Part shown: positions 25,028 to 32,317 of the stretch, one piece after another | Numbering within the stretch: position 1 is the first letter of the stretch | Layout: each line of letters opens with the position of its first letter | Source of the DNA: an uncultured Caulobacterales bacterium | GTDB taxonomy: Bacteria > Pseudomonadota > Alphaproteobacteria > Caulobacterales > Caulobacteraceae | Length of the DNA: 35,179 nucleotides | Assembly: GCA_903903715.1 (NCBI GenBank) | Contig: CAIUZX010000078.1 | Span: 1 to 35,179, forward strand | Direction: 5' to 3' | The notes under the pieces: generated by a model | Database searches by the model: none | Told to the model about the DNA's origin: nothing | The model's input: the letters and a program-made list of their open reading frames with translations, nothing else | Translations under genes and position numbers: made by a program

Positions 25028-26140
25028 TCATGAGCGACCATAGAACGCATTCACCGCGTTGGCGGTCATTTCGATCTGTTCCGGGCTCAGGTGTTGATGA
25101 TGCGGCAGAGCCAGAACCCGATCCGCTTGACGCTCTGCGACGGGCATGTCGCCCTTGCGATATCCAAGAGCCGCCGCCGCCGGCTGCAGATGGATCGGAC
25201 GGCGGTAGTAGATCAGCGACTGGACGCCCGACTGGGTCAGATGCGCGTGCAGCTCGTCGCGGCGCTCGCACTGGATGATGAACATGACGTGCGCATCGCT
25301 CTGCTGCGGATCATAGGGGGGAATGAAGAGATCGTCCTGAACGAGCAGGGATCGATAGAGCTCCACATTGCGACGTCGCCGCTCGATGACGTCGTCCAGC
25401 CGCCTAAGCCTGTGTAGCAGGACGGCTGCGTGGATGGTGTCGAGGCGGGAGTTCACGCCCCATTCGAGGCAGGTGTCGCGATCCGCCAGTCCGTGATTGC
25501 GATAGCGGCGCAAGCGCTCAGCGATTTCGGCGCTCTGGGTGAACAGAAAGCCGCCGTCGCCGACGGCGTTGAGGTTCTTCAAGGGGTGTGCGGAAAAGGC
25601 GCCGACCACGCCCCAGGTCCCGCCATGGCGTCCATTCCGGTAAGCGCCCATCGACTGGGCCGAATCCTCAATCACCAGCAGGCCATGCGTTTCGGCAATG
25701 GCGCTGATGGTTTCCATGTCGCAAATGCGGCCGGTCCAGTGAACGGGCATGATCGCGCGCGTGCGAGGCGTGATGAGCGCCTCGATACGTGCAGGGTCGA
25801 TGTTCTGATCCTCGCCCACGTCGCAGAAGACCGGCGTGGCGCCGATATGCGCGATAGAGGCCGTCGAGGCGACGAAGGAGTTCGGCGGCGTGATCACTTC
25901 ATCATCGCGCCTGATTCCCGCCGCCATCATGCCCATCATCAGCGCATCGGTTCCCGAATTCAGGGCGATGCAATGAGCTGCGCCGGCGTAGCTGGCGGCG
26001 GCGGCCTCGAAGTCCGTGACAGCTGCACCTCCGATCAGGTCGCCGCGCTCCAGCACATCGGTCACCGCGCTCAGCAGCTCCTCGCGCTCTTCGGCGAAGC
26101 GCTGCTTCAGATCGACGAACGGGACGAGGACGTCAGACAT
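25028..26140 (-). CDS. DegT/DnrJ/EryC1 PLP-dependent aminotransferase (B)
   Basis: 370 residues. Motifs: VPFVDLKQRFAEEREELLSAV, the GTDALMMGMMAAGIRRDDEVITPPNSFVAS loop, Asp159 and Gln162 in IEDSAQSMGA, the PLP lysine Lys188 in FSAHPLKNLNAVGDGG and NSRLDTIHAAVL. The tail IYYRRPIHLQPAAAALGY is typical of NDP-amino sugar aminotransferases. It is only distantly similar to the second DegT protein next door, so this is not a recent duplication. With the Gfo/Idh oxidoreductase of the same operon it could form an oxidise-then-aminate pair, as WbpB/WbpE do. Its start overlaps the amidohydrolase gene's stop by 8 bp, so the two are coupled. Confidence 0.92.
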   Translation of the reverse strand: MSDVLVPFVDLKQRFAEEREELLSAVTDVLERGDLIGGAAVTDFEAAAASYAGAAHCIALNSGTDALMMGMMAAGIRRDDEVITPPNSFVASTASIAHIGATPVFCDVGEDQNIDPARIEALITPRTRAIMPVHWTGRICDMETISAIAETHGLLVIEDSAQSMGAYRNGRHGGTWGVVGAFSAHPLKNLNAVGDGGFLFTQSAEIAERLRRYRNHGLADRDTCLEWGVNSRLDTIHAAVLLHRLRRLDDVIERRRRNVELYRSLLVQDDLFIPPYDPQQSDAHVMFIIQCERRDELHAHLTQSGVQSLIYYRRPIHLQPAAAALGYRKGDMPVAERQADRVLALPHHQHLSPEQIEMTANAVNAFYGRS

Positions 26141-26843
26141 GGGGTGTTCCTGCAGCGGGACCTTGCGCCAGAGCGCGCTCCGCCTTCAAAGGGGAGATCA
26201 GGCGCGCATAGTTTGCATCGAACAGGTCGAAGAGCGCGGGATCAGTGCCGCGATACCAGGCGATGGCCGCAGCCTGACTGAATTCGGGGTTGTCGGAGCC
26301 GAACACGACCTTCGACCGGATACGCGGCTCTGCGAGGGCGTGTCGGATCAGGCGGCTGACGCCGATATCAAGATCTGGCTGGCCGGTCACGCAGCCGAAG
26401 ATCTCCTGGGTGGCGGAGAAGTCCACGAAGGCGTTCGGGCTGTAACGCACGACCTGCAGCATCTCGTGAATGTCGTAGCCCCCGCCGTGGGTCAGCAGGA
26501 AATGGCGGTCCCGGAATCTCGCAAGCAGATGGAAGAAGTCGACCGGCTTCCAGACGAACTTGTAAAATGTGTCCAGCACCACGACCTTCGACGCCGAACC
26601 CGCCAGATACGCAGCGATCTGGTCCGGAGTGAAGCCGTTCCGGCGGCAGTGAATGTAGATGATGTCGCTGTCGGCATGGCGCTTGTCAGCGGTCAGATAG
26701 GGCGCGACGACAAACGTCTCGCCGTAAGGCTGGGCCTTGTGCCAGTCGTAGGGATGGCCTTCCGGAACCGGCGGGTCTCCTTCGACCGACAGGATCAGGC
26801 CGCCGTGCTGAGCCTCGACGATATGGGCGTGGACGTCGATCAT
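26133..26843 (-). CDS. Small amidohydrolase-family metal-dependent protein
   Basis: 236 residues, short for the amidohydrolase-2 (ACMSD-like) TIM-barrel family, which usually has about 280-330. It keeps the metal-site signatures: MIDVHAHI (HxH) at the very N-terminus, a His in LLTHGGGYDIHEM, and the Asp of VFGSDNPEF. SRLIRHALAEPRIRSKVVFGSDNP is the usual end of such barrels. Family members hydrolyse lactones or cyclic amides or decarboxylate acids; the substrate here is unknown. It is translated 5 bp after the oxygenase gene and overlaps aminotransferase B by 8 bp. Amidohydrolases are rare in glycan operons; it may trim a lactam, lactone or carboxyl group of the cluster's unusual sugar, which is speculation. 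Confidence 0.78.
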   Translation of the reverse strand: MIDVHAHIVEAQHGGLILSVEGDPPVPEGHPYDWHKAQPYGETFVVAPYLTADKRHADSDIIYIHCRRNGFTPDQIAAYLAGSASKVVVLDTFYKFVWKPVDFFHLLARFRDRHFLLTHGGGYDIHEMLQVVRYSPNAFVDFSATQEIFGCVTGQPDLDIGVSRLIRHALAEPRIRSKVVFGSDNPEFSQAAAIAWYRGTDPALFDLFDANYARLISPLKAERALAQGPAAGTPHV

Positions 26844-26848
26844 CGCGC

Positions 26849-27628
26849 TCAGTCCTTGAGAGGCCGCAGTCCGCCCCGGTCGAACACACCCGTCAGCGCC
26901 ACGGCGCGGCCGGACATGGCGTTGGCGTTGAAGGGGGTCTCTGGATCGATATCCGCGACACCGTGCACGCTCTGACCGTCCCAGATGACCACGTCGCCGG
27001 AGCGGCCCCCGAGCTCGAGATCGTGGATCTCCCCGTTACGCTCGACATAGACGCCGCCGGAATGGAAATCCACGCCGCGTTCCGTCAACTGAAGGCTGAG
27101 CTGCAGGTAGGCCACATCATCGCCCGTGACGTCTCCGAACACGGTGGCGCCTCTACGGTCCCTGTGCGCCGACATGAAGCCGCCGCCGGCGGGATAGAAA
27201 TGGATGCGGCAGGCGTTGAAGTGATCGGGCGCAAGACTTTCGTCGGTCAGGACCTCTCGCCCAATTACCGTGTCCCGCAGTGCGATCAGGGTTCTGAAGT
27301 CATTGTGGAGCTCGAAGATGTCCTCATCAAACAGCGGATTGTAGATGTTGATCATGAAGCGGGAGATGCCGGCCTGGGACTGGTTGGCGACGCCGATGCC
27401 CCACTTGCTGACATTCCGCCGAATCTCGTCCGGTGTGACGCCGGAGGAGGCGCGGTGCTGCGTCGTGTTGATGTAGGAGAGAATGCCCGAAAGTCGGCTC
27501 CGGATACGGTCTCGGTCGTACAGGCCGCGAACGCTCGCGTAACCTCTGACCCGAATGGCGTCCTGAATCTCGCCGCGGAGGGCTGCGACCTCCTCGACCG
27601 ACGTCGCGTGAAACACGGTTGCGCTCAT
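26849..27628 (-). CDS. Fe(II)/2-oxoglutarate-dependent oxygenase-like protein
   Basis: 259 residues. The candidate 2-His-1-carboxylate triad is His155 and Asp157 (FMSAHRDRRG) with His222 (WDGQSVHGV), and Arg241 (SGRAVALTGVF) sits where the 2-oxoglutarate-binding Arg/Lys usually lies. Between them are strands of a jelly roll (VAYLQLSLQLTERGVDFHSGGVYV, GDVVIWDG). It probably hydroxylates or oxidises an intermediate or the finished sugar. Its start overlaps the SDR gene's stop by 4 bp (ATGA) and 5 bp separate it from the amidohydrolase gene. The exact family (PhyH-like or other cupin oxygenase) is uncertain, and the substrate is unknown. Confidence 0.75.
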   Translation of the reverse strand: MSATVFHATSVEEVAALRGEIQDAIRVRGYASVRGLYDRDRIRSRLSGILSYINTTQHRASSGVTPDEIRRNVSKWGIGVANQSQAGISRFMINIYNPLFDEDIFELHNDFRTLIALRDTVIGREVLTDESLAPDHFNACRIHFYPAGGGFMSAHRDRRGATVFGDVTGDDVAYLQLSLQLTERGVDFHSGGVYVERNGEIHDLELGGRSGDVVIWDGQSVHGVADIDPETPFNANAMSGRAVALTGVFDRGGLRPLKD

Positions 27629-28524
27629 TCCGGGCTCACTGGCGTGAGGGCGACGGCGGCGGGAAGGAGGTCAGAGCAGCCTTGCTCGAAGCTTCGAAAC
27701 GTCACGTCGGGCATTTTCGTCAACCTCAAGGTGGGGTCGAAATGGCGGTGCGTCACGGGGTTCTGGCGCGGCGAGCCGTGAATAGTCGGCTCCGGTTCGA
27801 GTCGAAACGCCAGATGCTCTGCAACGGCGCGGAAGGAGAGGGATTGTCCCAGCGCAACATTCAATATTCCGGAAGTCCGGCGCATGGCGCAGCTCAGGAC
27901 GACCCTGGCGAGATCCTCGACGTGCACATGGTCGCGCATTTCCTCGCCGTTTCCGAACAGCGATATCTCGCCCGATTTCACCGCGTCTCGCGCGAAGCGG
28001 TTCGGTCCGTAGCTGTTGTGCGGGTCGCCTGCGCCATATAGTGCGCTCGGCCGCAGGATCGCCAGCGGGGTGGCGCCCGCGATGGACTGCACCATGGCTT
28101 CTCGGGCGACATGCATGGCGCCGTGCAGGCTGCTAGCGTCTGTGGGGGAGGTCTCGGTGACGAACGTCGCCTCGCCATAGACCGCGTCGGACGAAATGTA
28201 GATCAGGTGCGACGCCGGAGACCGCCTCCAGGCGGCGCAGACGACCTGCGCCATGATGACGTTCTCGACCATCATTTCCGAGGTCTTCGCCGGCGCGCGG
28301 GCGGCTGCGAACACGACCGTGTCGGACGGTCTGCAGAGCCCGCCAAGCTGCTCGTCGGCGTCAGCGGCGGACAGATCGACATCGGCGCGGCCCAAGGCCA
28401 GAACGTCGACGCCCTCGGACCTGGCGGCGCTGATCACATGTCGGCCGACAAAGCCCGCGGCGCCGATGACCACCAGCCGTTGAGGTTTCACGGGCTGCTC
28501 AAGTTGATGCGTCAAAGGGGGCAT
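27625..28524 (-). CDS. NAD-dependent epimerase/dehydratase-like SDR with altered active site
   Basis: 299 residues. The NAD-binding motif GAAGFVGRH lies at about 21-29, VVFAAARAP is the next strand, and YISSDAVYGE is the usual Ser strand (Ser111/112). The catalytic Y-x-x-x-K should follow, but the sequence reads SSLHGAMHVARE: His134 replaces Tyr and His138 replaces Lys (cac ... cat in the DNA). LRPSALYGAGDPHNSYGPNRF and HVEDLARVV confirm the extended SDR fold. Either it is a special subfamily that uses other residues, or it binds without turnover. It begins 9 bp after the UGD-like gene and overlaps the oxygenase gene by 4 bp, in the middle of the glycan operon. Confidence 0.88.
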   Translation of the reverse strand: MPPLTHQLEQPVKPQRLVVIGAAGFVGRHVISAARSEGVDVLALGRADVDLSAADADEQLGGLCRPSDTVVFAAARAPAKTSEMMVENVIMAQVVCAAWRRSPASHLIYISSDAVYGEATFVTETSPTDASSLHGAMHVAREAMVQSIAGATPLAILRPSALYGAGDPHNSYGPNRFARDAVKSGEISLFGNGEEMRDHVHVEDLARVVLSCAMRRTSGILNVALGQSLSFRAVAEHLAFRLEPEPTIHGSPRQNPVTHRHFDPTLRLTKMPDVTFRSFEQGCSDLLPAAVALTPVSPE

Positions 28525-28533
28525 GGTGCGCCT

Positions 28534-29814
28534 TCACGATCCAGAGGGGTGGCCAAGTCGGCGATAGTCGAAACCGGCGCGTGCGAAGGCGCGCTCATCG
28601 AGCAGGCCGTAGGGGTCAAGCAGTAGCCGCGCTTGTGTCCAGCCCGCGAGCTGATCGGCCGTTATGGTCGCGTAGTCCGGCCAGGGAGTCATGATCGCGA
28701 CGGCGGCGGTGGACTGACAGGCCGCTTCCACGGTCGCGCAGATGGTCAGTCGCTCAGGCGGATCGGGGATCGCACTCACGACAGGATCATGCGCCGACAC
28801 CAGGCGCGGGCCCAGATTGCGGAGAAGCTCCACCCCCGGGGAGTTGCGGATGGAGGCGGTGTTTTCCTTGTAGGCGAGGCCGAGGATGGCGACCGGCGCG
28901 TCCGCTTCAAGGCCTGCCGAATGGACCTGTCGCAGCGCCCATCCCCGACGGTATGCGGACGCCCGTGTCCAGCAGGTGGTCAGTCCGCTCTCCACGCCGT
29001 GTTCACCCGCGAGCTTCTCGATCGTGGCGATGTCGCGCCCGAGATTGCTGCCGCCAAAGCCGAGGCCAGGGGTCAGATAGGCGGACGGGCCGATCCGTGC
29101 GTCGAGTCTGAGGGCCGGAACGATCTCGCTCCACTGCGCGCCCGTCTCCGCGGCGAGGTCGGCCAGCATTCCCGTGGTGCTAAGGCTCGACACCAGAAAA
29201 GCGTTGATGGCGATCTTGGTCAGCTCCGCGCTTTCAGCGCGCATCGTCAGAACCGGACAATCGAAGGCCTGCAGATAGGCCTGGTAGGCATTCGGCAGAG
29301 GCCTGTCCGTGTCGAGCTGACCGACGATCAGCCGTTCCGGATGCAGCGCCCGGGCCATCGCCCGTCCGAAGATGAGCGTCTCAACTTGATAGCCGATGTT
29401 TTCGCCGCCGAGATCACGGGCAAGGCCACGCGTGAAGCCGGGCGGAACCTGGCTCAGGATCACCATGATGGCGCCCGGCTTCAGGTGCGGGAAGACGTGT
29501 TCAGCTAATGTGCGGATGGGGTTGAGGTCGCTGGTGTCGTCCTCCAGGGTCGGAACATCCTCCGCCACAAAGACCACGTCGCATTGGGCGATATCGTGCA
29601 ATGCCGCAGACAGTTTGAGGTTCGGGTGTCGCAAGGCCTCGGGCAGGCCCGGCTCCTCGATGGAGAGACGTCCCGCCCGGATGGCCTCGACCCGCTGATC
29701 GTCAGAGTCATAGGCCACTGTCTCGAAGCCCTTTGCGGCGCACGCCGCAGCGGTGCACAGCCCCAGGTGTGTCAGGCCGCAAATTCCTATGGTGGGGAGG
29801 TCCGACAGCATCAT
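28534..29814 (-). CDS. UDP-glucose/GDP-mannose dehydrogenase-like protein without catalytic Cys
   Basis: 426 residues from ATG 29814, which overlaps the preceding stop by 4 bp; the track start (29865) lies inside the previous gene. The three-domain UGD layout is visible: GICGLTHLGLCTAAACAAKG (NAD), SQVPPGFTRG, AELTKIAINAF (central domain) and LGLAYKENTASIRNSP (C-terminal domain). The usual GFGGSCFxKD is GFGGSNLGRD here, so Asn257 replaces the catalytic Cys and Arg260 the Lys. The usual PEFLREG is also gone (TLIFGRA). The classical two-step oxidation to a uronic acid through a Cys thiohemiacetal is therefore unlikely. It may oxidise once, or have lost activity. Operon neighbours are a Gfo/Idh oxidoreductase and the altered SDR. 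Confidence 0.88.
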   Translation of the reverse strand: MMLSDLPTIGICGLTHLGLCTAAACAAKGFETVAYDSDDQRVEAIRAGRLSIEEPGLPEALRHPNLKLSAALHDIAQCDVVFVAEDVPTLEDDTSDLNPIRTLAEHVFPHLKPGAIMVILSQVPPGFTRGLARDLGGENIGYQVETLIFGRAMARALHPERLIVGQLDTDRPLPNAYQAYLQAFDCPVLTMRAESAELTKIAINAFLVSSLSTTGMLADLAAETGAQWSEIVPALRLDARIGPSAYLTPGLGFGGSNLGRDIATIEKLAGEHGVESGLTTCWTRASAYRRGWALRQVHSAGLEADAPVAILGLAYKENTASIRNSPGVELLRNLGPRLVSAHDPVVSAIPDPPERLTICATVEAACQSTAAVAIMTPWPDYATITADQLAGWTQARLLLDPYGLLDERAFARAGFDYRRLGHPSGS

Positions 29815-30758
29815 AGGGGCGTCCCGGCCTGGCCGCTGATGTTCGCCAACTCCCGCTCGATCCACAGGTCATCCACGAGGGGCTCCGGCCTATTCTCGCT
29901 CAGGCTGTGGCACAGGTCTTTGAAGTGCGCGTATTCCAAGGACCAGGTCGGATCCTCCTGAGTCAGGGTCACCTCGGTCTCCGTCGGGCGGCCGCTGGGC
30001 AGGATACGGGTCCGGTGGATGAAGGACGAGGGGCCCCATTTGCAAAGGGAACGGATGTGGGCGCTGCCCTTGTCTGCGAAGACGTCCGCCGAGAAGTCGT
30101 TGCGCCAGGAGATCAACGACATTTCGAGCTCGACGTCCGGCGCGCCTGCGCCCGCCAGCACCACATTGTCGAACGCCTTGGTCTCGAAGGACGAGGCGCG
30201 GACGAGTTTGAAGTCCCACCGTGCTTCATCGCCGAACCAGAAGCGGAGCGTGTCCAGGAGGTGGCTGCCGAGGTCCGGCAGCACGCCGCTGTTGCGATCG
30301 CGCCAGGGACTGTCTGCGACCAGACGCGCCGTACCGTTTCCGTAGAAGAGGCGGAGGCTGTAGACCTGCCCCAGCGCTCCCGAAGCCAGAAGATCCCGCA
30401 TGCGGATGAAGTGCGGCTCGAAGCGATGGTTATAGGCAGTGTAGAGCACGGCGTCTGTCGCCTTCGCCGTCCGGGCCAGGGCCTGATAGGCGGCGTCCTC
30501 TCCCAACATGAGCGGCTTTTCGACGAGGACATGCTTTCCGGCCGCCAGCAAACTCTGCAGCAATTCGGGCTTGGCGTGGTCCGGCGTGCAGACAGCCGCG
30601 GCGTCGATCAGGTCCAGATCCAGGTCTTCGATCGCGCGAAGGTCCGCGTCCGACGCGACCGGATCGATGGTCGCGGCCAAGTCTGCGCCGGCGATGCGCG
30701 CGCGCTTGCGTCCCTGGACCCCCAGGCCGAAGATCGCCAGACGGAGCGGTGCGCTCAT
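29811..30758 (-). CDS. Gfo/Idh/MocA family oxidoreductase
   Basis: 315 residues from ATG 30758 (MSAPLRLAIFGLGVQGRKRA). The track start at 31073 lies inside the upstream gene. NAD(P) binding motif GLGVQG is followed by AAVCTPDHAKPEL, the catalytic EKPLML (Lys81), TAYNHRFEPHF and PDLGSHLLDTL with Asp162 and His166, which act in hydride transfer. Such enzymes oxidise ring hydroxyls of sugars, cyclitols or NDP-uronic acids. In the WbpA/WbpB/WbpE pathway, a UGD-family enzyme, a Gfo/Idh enzyme and a DegT aminotransferase act in sequence; the same three families occur here but the UGD-like member lacks its Cys. It overlaps the kinase gene before it and the UGD-like gene after it by 4 bp each. Confidence 0.92.
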   Translation of the reverse strand: MSAPLRLAIFGLGVQGRKRARIAGADLAATIDPVASDADLRAIEDLDLDLIDAAAVCTPDHAKPELLQSLLAAGKHVLVEKPLMLGEDAAYQALARTAKATDAVLYTAYNHRFEPHFIRMRDLLASGALGQVYSLRLFYGNGTARLVADSPWRDRNSGVLPDLGSHLLDTLRFWFGDEARWDFKLVRASSFETKAFDNVVLAGAGAPDVELEMSLISWRNDFSADVFADKGSAHIRSLCKWGPSSFIHRTRILPSGRPTETEVTLTQEDPTWSLEYAHFKDLCHSLSENRPEPLVDDLWIERELANISGQAGTPL

Positions 30759-32317
30759 CCGACGAAGCACCGGTCTTTGATCTGCGCGCATTTGGCGCGG
30801 AGTTGTTCGAGGGACACCGGAATGTTTCCGTCCAGCTCGCATTCGACGGCTGCGGCGAAGCTTCCGAGGATGCCTGCGATCACGCAATTGCCGGTGGCGC
30901 GGAGCGCCAGGGCGGAATAAGCGAGCAGGGCGTCTCCCGAGCCGACGGCGTCGACCACACGATCTGTGAAACTGTCGAGCACCACGAAGCTCGATCCGAT
31001 ATCGCCCGGAGGGTTTGCCGGACGAAACACGATCACCCCGCGCTCCCCGAGCTTCAGGAGCAGGTGCCGGCATCGCGCCGCTTCATATAGGCGGCTGCCG
31101 AGGGGGCGGATGACGGTGTCCTGATCGCCCATGGCGAACCGCGCCTCCCGCTCATTGGGCGTGATCAGGTCGAAGTCCTTGAAATCGAGGATATTGCCCC
31201 AGCGGCTGGAGACCTGGCTGTCGGCGACCTTCAAAGCTCCTGGCGGGATCGAAGCGATGATCGCGTCCGTAGTCGGCGCGCTGAACACGCCATGACGGAA
31301 GTCGCTGAGGATAACGAGGTCGGCGTCTGTGGTGGAGAGGTTGGCGCAGATCTCGCGGCGAATGCGGTCCGAGATGGCCCGATTGTCCAGCTTGTCGATC
31401 TTCAGCATGCGATAGTCGCCGACCACGACCGCGTTCTTCTGCGTCGTCGGTCGGGTCGGGTCCGTCACGGCCTTGAGCCGGACGCCCGCGCTGGCGAGAT
31501 CGTTCCGGACCAACTCCGCGAGCGCGTCATCGCCCAGGACCGTCGACAGAGTGACCTCGGCGCCGGCGGTCTGCAGGTGCTTGGCGACCACGCCCGCGCC
31601 GCCGACATAGTGCACTTCGTCCTCATAGCGGACACTGAAAGTCGGTGTCTTGCCGTTGGCGCCGATCAGCGTGGTGCGGGTTTGTGTGTCGACGATCACG
31701 TCGCCCACGACGTGCACCTTCAGGCCGGACAGCGCATCAAGGCTTCGATCAAGGTCCTCGAAGGTGATCCCTTCGTTTTCCATGACCACCATGAGCTTCT
31801 CATTCGAGATGTTCGGCGGCATGGAGTCGATGATGCGGGAGGACGAGTACACCACGTCCCCCGGTGTAAACACCATCTCCCCGCCATAGCTTTCGACGGC
31901 TTCCATTTCCGCAGCGGTCTTGGGGTGCACGCCGCCCTTTGCGTATTCATAGCCTTTGACGAAGTAGTCCGGCTGAATGATGCGGATGTTTTCCAGCGGA
32001 TCAGCATTCGGATCGACGGTGACAAAGTCGACCATCTGGAGAGCCGCGAGATTCAATGCCCGAAGGTCATGGGGCACGTAGGGCCTGATGTTCGCCTTCT
32101 GGATATGGTGATCTGCGGTGATACCGACGACAAGCAAGTCGCCGCGCTCACGCGCATAAAGCAGGTGCCGGATATGGCCTGGATGAACAATATCAAATGT
32201 TCCATGACACATCACCACCCTGCGGTCGCGAGGGCGGTCTCCGATCAGCGCTCTAATCTCAGCAGCTGACTTGACCTTCTCAGCATAAACCTTGCCGAAC
32301 AGATTGCTGGCGGTCAT
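30755..32317 (-). CDS. Bifunctional nucleotidyltransferase / PfkB sugar kinase (HldE-like, reversed domain order)
   Basis: 520 residues. The N-terminal part is a nucleotidyltransferase of the RfaE-C/TagD type with HxGH (VMCHGTFDIVHPGHIRHL, residues about 37-52) and YFVKGYEYAKGG. From about 197 onward it is a PfkB kinase: VHVVGDVIVD, GGAGVVAKHLQTAGA, LVILSDFRHG and the catalytic base Asp462 in VVDAVGSGDALLAY. In HldE of enteric bacteria the kinase comes first and the nucleotidyltransferase second, so the order is swapped here. It probably phosphorylates a sugar or heptose-like phosphate and activates it as an NDP-sugar; which nucleotide (ADP, CDP or other) cannot be told. GGAG stands 5 bases before the ATG. 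It is the first gene of the operon and shares a 185-bp divergent region with the RmlD-like gene. Confidence 0.9.
   Translation of the reverse strand: MTASNLFGKVYAEKVKSAAEIRALIGDRPRDRRVVMCHGTFDIVHPGHIRHLLYARERGDLLVVGITADHHIQKANIRPYVPHDLRALNLAALQMVDFVTVDPNADPLENIRIIQPDYFVKGYEYAKGGVHPKTAAEMEAVESYGGEMVFTPGDVVYSSSRIIDSMPPNISNEKLMVVMENEGITFEDLDRSLDALSGLKVHVVGDVIVDTQTRTTLIGANGKTPTFSVRYEDEVHYVGGAGVVAKHLQTAGAEVTLSTVLGDDALAELVRNDLASAGVRLKAVTDPTRPTTQKNAVVVGDYRMLKIDKLDNRAISDRIRREICANLSTTDADLVILSDFRHGVFSAPTTDAIIASIPPGALKVADSQVSSRWGNILDFKDFDLITPNEREARFAMGDQDTVIRPLGSRLYEAARCRHLLLKLGERGVIVFRPANPPGDIGSSFVVLDSFTDRVVDAVGSGDALLAYSALALRATGNCVIAGILGSFAAAVECELDGNIPVSLEQLRAKCAQIKDRCFVG

Follow-up and report, generated by a model that had tools for sequence, protein, structure and literature searches.

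The SDR1 gene and its operon

The window analyzed here, a 35,179-nucleotide stretch from an uncultured Caulobacterales bacterium, carries a tight operon on its minus strand, which includes an unusual extended SDR, here called SDR1 (27625-28524, minus strand; ATG start, 299 aa). Pfam, sequence alignment and a structural model all place it among the extended SDRs, but YxxxK, the signature used to recognise SDR activity, is replaced by HxxxH (His134-Gly-Ala-Met-His138; codons CAC GGC GCC ATG CAT at 28111-28125, minus strand). SDR1 starts 9 bases past the end of a gene for a UGD-like dehydrogenase (28534-29814, minus strand; assigned by Pfam, profiles and alignment), whose likely ATG at 29814 overlaps the stop of the preceding gene. 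That preceding gene encodes a Gfo/Idh/MocA oxidoreductase (29811-30758, minus strand, with a likely ATG at 30758, although a longer mechanical ORF reaches 31073), and its start overlaps in turn the stop of an HldE-like fusion gene (30755-32317, minus strand). The fusion protein consists of a cytidylyltransferase-like nucleotidyltransferase domain followed by a PfkB kinase, the reverse of the domain order in HldE.

On the downstream side, the TGA stop of SDR1 overlaps the ATG of the next gene (26849-27628, minus strand) in an ATGA arrangement, which points to translational coupling. The product of this gene has no match in Pfam, NCBIfam or PDB sequences; by eye it resembles 2OG/Fe oxygenases and also the protein encoded at L007:4417-5373 in another genome that contains SDR1. 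The neighboring protein (26133-26843, minus strand) carries two motifs that recall amidohydrolases, MIDVHAH and FGSDNP, and has no Pfam match; a TAL effector match obtained for it was discarded as an artefact, since no single stretch passes alone. The gene after that (25028-26140, minus strand) encodes a DegT/DnrJ/EryC1 aminotransferase according to Pfam, and a 64% identical counterpart adjoins SDR1 in L007.

Fold and active site of SDR1

SDR1 belongs to the NAD-dependent epimerase/dehydratase family (Pfam Epimerase, PF01370; 6.8e-31). It contains the GxxGxxG Rossmann motif of this fold (GAAGFVG, residues 21-27; 28444-28464, minus strand), in which the third glycine is replaced by Ala in several other members of its subfamily. 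In the SSDAVY strand (Ser111-Tyr116; 28177-28194, minus strand), Ser112 and Asp113 occupy the sites where nucleotide-sugar SDRs have Ser/Thr-Asp, and the catalytic Ser/Thr that extended SDRs carry on this strand is thus present as Ser112. An AlphaFold2 model of SDR1 built with 14 natural homologues as input (pLDDT 91.6, pTM 0.91) is closest to the solved folds of MoeE5 (6kvc) and TunA (3vps), both with a TM score of about 0.8. The SDR1 segment 'slhgamhvarea' aligns without gaps to 'slygasklacea' of the solved SDR 3ehe, placing His134 on the Tyr and His138 on the Lys, and in the model the HxxxH motif lies at the start of helix 133-149, the usual place of YxxxK in SDRs. The alignment, the model and the motifs therefore bear out the first-pass annotation, which had placed the two His residues at the catalytic Tyr and Lys positions of a protein whose Rossmann motif and Ser strand remain intact.

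SDR1 has its fold, Rossmann motif, Ser strand and Epimerase Pfam family in common with other extended nucleotide-sugar SDRs (MoeE5, TunA, GalE-type epimerases, HldD and RmlD), but differs from them in reading HxxxH for YxxxK, and its identity is 16-24% over the fold matches listed. It falls below the curated cut-offs for both HldD, the ADP-heptose 6-epimerase (TIGR02197; 50.8 vs 274.6 bits), and RmlD, the dTDP-4-dehydrorhamnose reductase (TIGR01214; 51.8 vs 224 bits), and no Polysacc_synt_2 match was obtained at an E-value of 0.001. The Mx3K dehydratases CapE, WbpM and PglF dispense with the catalytic Tyr, as SDR1 does. CapE, a sugar SDR with MxxxK, is active (PMC3699295), and so are WbpM and PglF; in PglF a Thr-Asp pair serves as the base (PMC8987622). 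Unlike SDR1, however, these proteins keep the Lys, have Met rather than His at the Tyr position, belong to a different SDR branch and are known 4,6-dehydratases; the Mx3K signature of Met with a retained Lys is absent from SDR1, which has His at both positions. Among the characterized Tyr-less SDRs compared (CapE, WbpM and PglF), there is no documented example of an active enzyme that has lost both Tyr and Lys.

Conservation, spread and history of the HxxxH subfamily

A scan of species genomes detected four relatives of SDR1 with 42-51% identity, in one alphaproteobacterium, two Opitutaceae and one betaproteobacterium; the betaproteobacterial match is a YxxxH paralogue, and its HxxxH gene adjoins it. 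Nine further HxxxH genes came from profile searches that covered 399 genomes from the window's phylum, the 48 of one order and 200 of another. The subfamily thus extends over at least two phyla, with members in Alpha- and Betaproteobacteria, Verrucomicrobiota and another Pseudomonadota group. Within the order to which the window belongs, a search of 398 genomes gave a match to SDR1 at E≤1e-30 in the window's own genome alone; the gene is thus rare and patchily distributed in this order. No relatives were found in viral contigs and plasmids, and a search of the open-access literature returned nothing on SDRs with HxxxH or on this gene cluster.

The first-pass annotation had proposed checking whether HGxMH is conserved in homologues with the same operon context, and regarded a normal YxxxK in that context as the mark of a decayed copy. 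H-G-[AVIM]-M-H is kept in all 14 subfamily members found, whose pairwise identities range from 38% to 76%; none of them has YxxxK, and in none of the cassettes found is the SDR1 slot taken by a YxxxK SDR. Besides the two His residues, Ser112, Asp113, Arg141 and Glu142 are invariant in 14 of 14, and His169, His199 and His259 are further invariant residues of the subfamily. Codon usage at the two motif positions varies only synonymously across the members (6 CAC and 8 CAT for His134; 7 CAC and 7 CAT for His138). The codons have drifted while both residues were held, which argues that the motif did not arise by chance. As a baseline, 29 further extended SDRs encoded in the fetched loci (these loci, rather than whole genomes, being the source of the sample) all contain YxxxK. 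Decay of a redundant copy with chance loss of YxxxK can be considered ruled out, its residual probability being negligible, in view of the conservation across phyla, the synonymous-only codon variation, the intact ORFs and the translational coupling. From these sequence patterns, SDR1 is a maintained variant, and probably a working one, rather than a broken gene.

When the motif columns are excluded from the alignment, the tree unites the HxxxH proteins in a single clade (support 100/99) and has one Tyr-to-His change. In four genomes, a second, paralogous SDR lies beside the UGD-like gene (L008:3085-4041, L009:10186-11172, L010:7998-8879 and L038:10475-11491) and reads YxxxH, with the Tyr kept and the Lys changed to His. 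The outgroup was the nearest more distant homologue (L035/G838), which reads YGMAK, lies outside the cassette and comes from the phylum of an Opitutaceae member; its branch is long, and the root is therefore less certain than the HxxxH clade. The AU test did not separate an arrangement of the YxxxH paralogues as a sister clade from one as a grade (p = 0.34). Under both topologies, the two paralogues have the Lys-to-His change in common, and the Tyr-to-His change belongs to the HxxxH clade alone.

The UGD-like partner and the proposed role of SDR1

The first-pass annotation had also considered the neighboring UGD-like protein to be altered, and this proved correct. All three UGD domains are present, and the protein passes the nucleotide-sugar 6-dehydrogenase profile (TIGR03026; 196.8 bits, cut-off 189.8). 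It shares with UDP-glucose and other nucleotide-sugar 6-dehydrogenases the active-site residues Lys217, Asn221 and Asp278, which are invariant, but the catalytic Cys of the GGSCFPKD motif is replaced by Asn274 (GFGGSNLGRD) in all 12 aligned homologues. Three ordinary UGDs inspected from related genomes have the catalytic Cys and read GGSCFPKD, and ordinary UGDs score at most 227 bits against the UGD-like profile, compared with at least 620 bits for the partner. The partner was found in all 14 genomes with SDR1. Moreover, independent searches of the 399 genomes from the window's phylum, for SDR1 and for the Asn-containing UGD-like protein, converged on the same five genomes, although some of these had contributed to the latter profile, which could miss divergent versions. 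In ordinary UGDs the second oxidation proceeds via a thioester on the catalytic Cys. This step is not expected of a protein that has no such thiol, and the partner should stop at the carbonyl. An Asn-for-Cys UGD-like dehydrogenase that is invariant across the cassette family is a finding in its own right.

The core of the cassette consists of the HldE-like nucleotidyltransferase/kinase, the Gfo/Idh/MocA oxidoreductase, the UGD-like dehydrogenase and SDR1, to which GmhA-, GmhB- and transaldolase-like genes are often added. Where a locus is long enough for the other core genes to be seen, they almost always adjoin SDR1; the L007 genome has them some 20 kb from SDR1 on its contig, along with GmhA-, GmhB- and transaldolase-like genes. 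The same operon core recurs in each of the taxonomic groups named above. The families represented are a SIS isomerase, a PfkB kinase plus nucleotidyltransferase, a HAD phosphatase and a transaldolase, and the transaldolase-like gene scores above the curated cut-off of TIGR02134. The curated cut-offs for HldE, GmhA and GmhB were missed (150.6 of 521 for HldE), though these models are the best matches. On these family matches, the cassette probably acts on an NDP-heptose or a closely analogous compound.

Other genes were observed around the cassette in particular genomes. Thiamine-diphosphate enzymes, either E1 alpha/beta pairs or an acetolactate-synthase-like protein, occur near it in three loci (L008:5919-8033, L019:5007-7143 and L009:11885-13774), which suggests that the sugar of some clusters is branched or extended. 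Directly upstream of the HldE-like gene, three genomes from a single Pseudomonadota order encode a protein that resembles, by eye, a radical-SAM enzyme (L016:5453-6553, L017:388-1488 and L018:8148-9248).

We consider it reasonably likely that SDR1, a maintained extended nucleotide-sugar SDR with a His/His dyad, is catalytic and acts in a pathway for an NDP-activated, heptose-like sugar. The HldE-like enzyme would activate the sugar as an NDP-sugar, which three Rossmann-fold enzymes would then remodel. Of these, the UGD-like dehydrogenase would oxidise it once, to the carbonyl. In SDR1, the proton transfer of the missing Tyr might be taken over by His134 or, in the manner of PglF, by Ser112-Asp113, a pair that in our reading lies on the same strand as the Thr-Asp pair of PglF; His138 would stand in for the Lys. 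Placed between a Cys-less UGD-like enzyme and a Gfo/Idh reductase, SDR1 is plausibly a proton-transfer enzyme, one that would act mainly in enolisation or epimerisation beside the new carbonyl and less in hydride transfer, and the Gfo/Idh/MocA oxidoreductase could then reduce the carbonyl again. We infer the heptose-like substrate, the catalytic activity of SDR1 and its particular reaction. Counting against this explanation are the Lys kept by the characterized Tyr-less SDRs, the Ala at the third Rossmann glycine of several members, and the family matches from which the sugar is identified, which lie under the HldE, GmhA and GmhB cut-offs.

Remodelling of GDP-heptose in Campylobacter uses a separate C4-dehydrogenase, C3/C5-epimerase and C4-reductase (PMC10680097). 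By analogy, the same logic would hold for the cassette, with a sugar activated as in heptose pathways and then one enzyme each to oxidise, epimerise and reduce it, but the set of three enzymes is different: the UGD-like protein, the HxxxH SDR and the Gfo/Idh/MocA oxidoreductase. A more specific version, which we put forward only tentatively and regard as rather unlikely, is a split NDP-heptose epimerisation: the thiol-less UGD-like enzyme would oxidise the terminal CH2OH no further than the aldehyde, the His residues of SDR1 would deprotonate and reprotonate the neighboring carbon, with NAD playing no redox part, and reduction of the aldehyde would fall to the Gfo/Idh enzyme.

The first-pass annotation had offered two alternatives for this gene pair, a pathway with non-standard chemistry or a role as binding subunits. 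The former gains support from the co-occurrence of SDR1 and the Cys-less UGD-like protein in every genome found; the latter is the weaker half, given that the active-site positions Ser112, Asp113, His134, His138, Arg141 and Glu142 are invariant. A non-catalytic SDR1 that binds NAD(P) or a sugar in a complex with the UGD-like enzyme, as MAT2B does with MAT2A, would account for the loss of both hallmark residues and for the adjacency and strict co-occurrence of the two genes, and SDR-fold regulatory proteins do exist (PMC3793261). However, there is no obvious reason for a binding subunit to fix His at exactly the two replaced sites and to hold the four other positions as well, and MAT2B itself retains YxxxK (PMC3793261); we therefore regard this role as possible but doubtful. 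Two invariant His residues one helical turn apart at an SDR active site, together with the invariant His169, His199, His259 and Asp113, could also form a metal site, which would make SDR1 a metal-dependent isomerase, lyase or aldolase on an SDR fold. The YxxxH paralogues, however, retain only the second His, indicating that the two were not acquired together, and such a metal site appears improbable.

If the split epimerisation is true, SDR1 would be an SDR turned from a redox enzyme into an acid-base isomerase, and the cassette an instance of the 'oxidise C7, epimerise C6, reduce' route, which has been listed as possible but unassigned (PMC10680097). More generally, a widespread subfamily with His fixed at both sites, always beside a Cys-less dehydrogenase, would mean either that His residues can reconstitute the proton relay of SDRs or that other chemistry can be carried out on their fold, and the cassette would mark a defined pathway for an unusual surface sugar.
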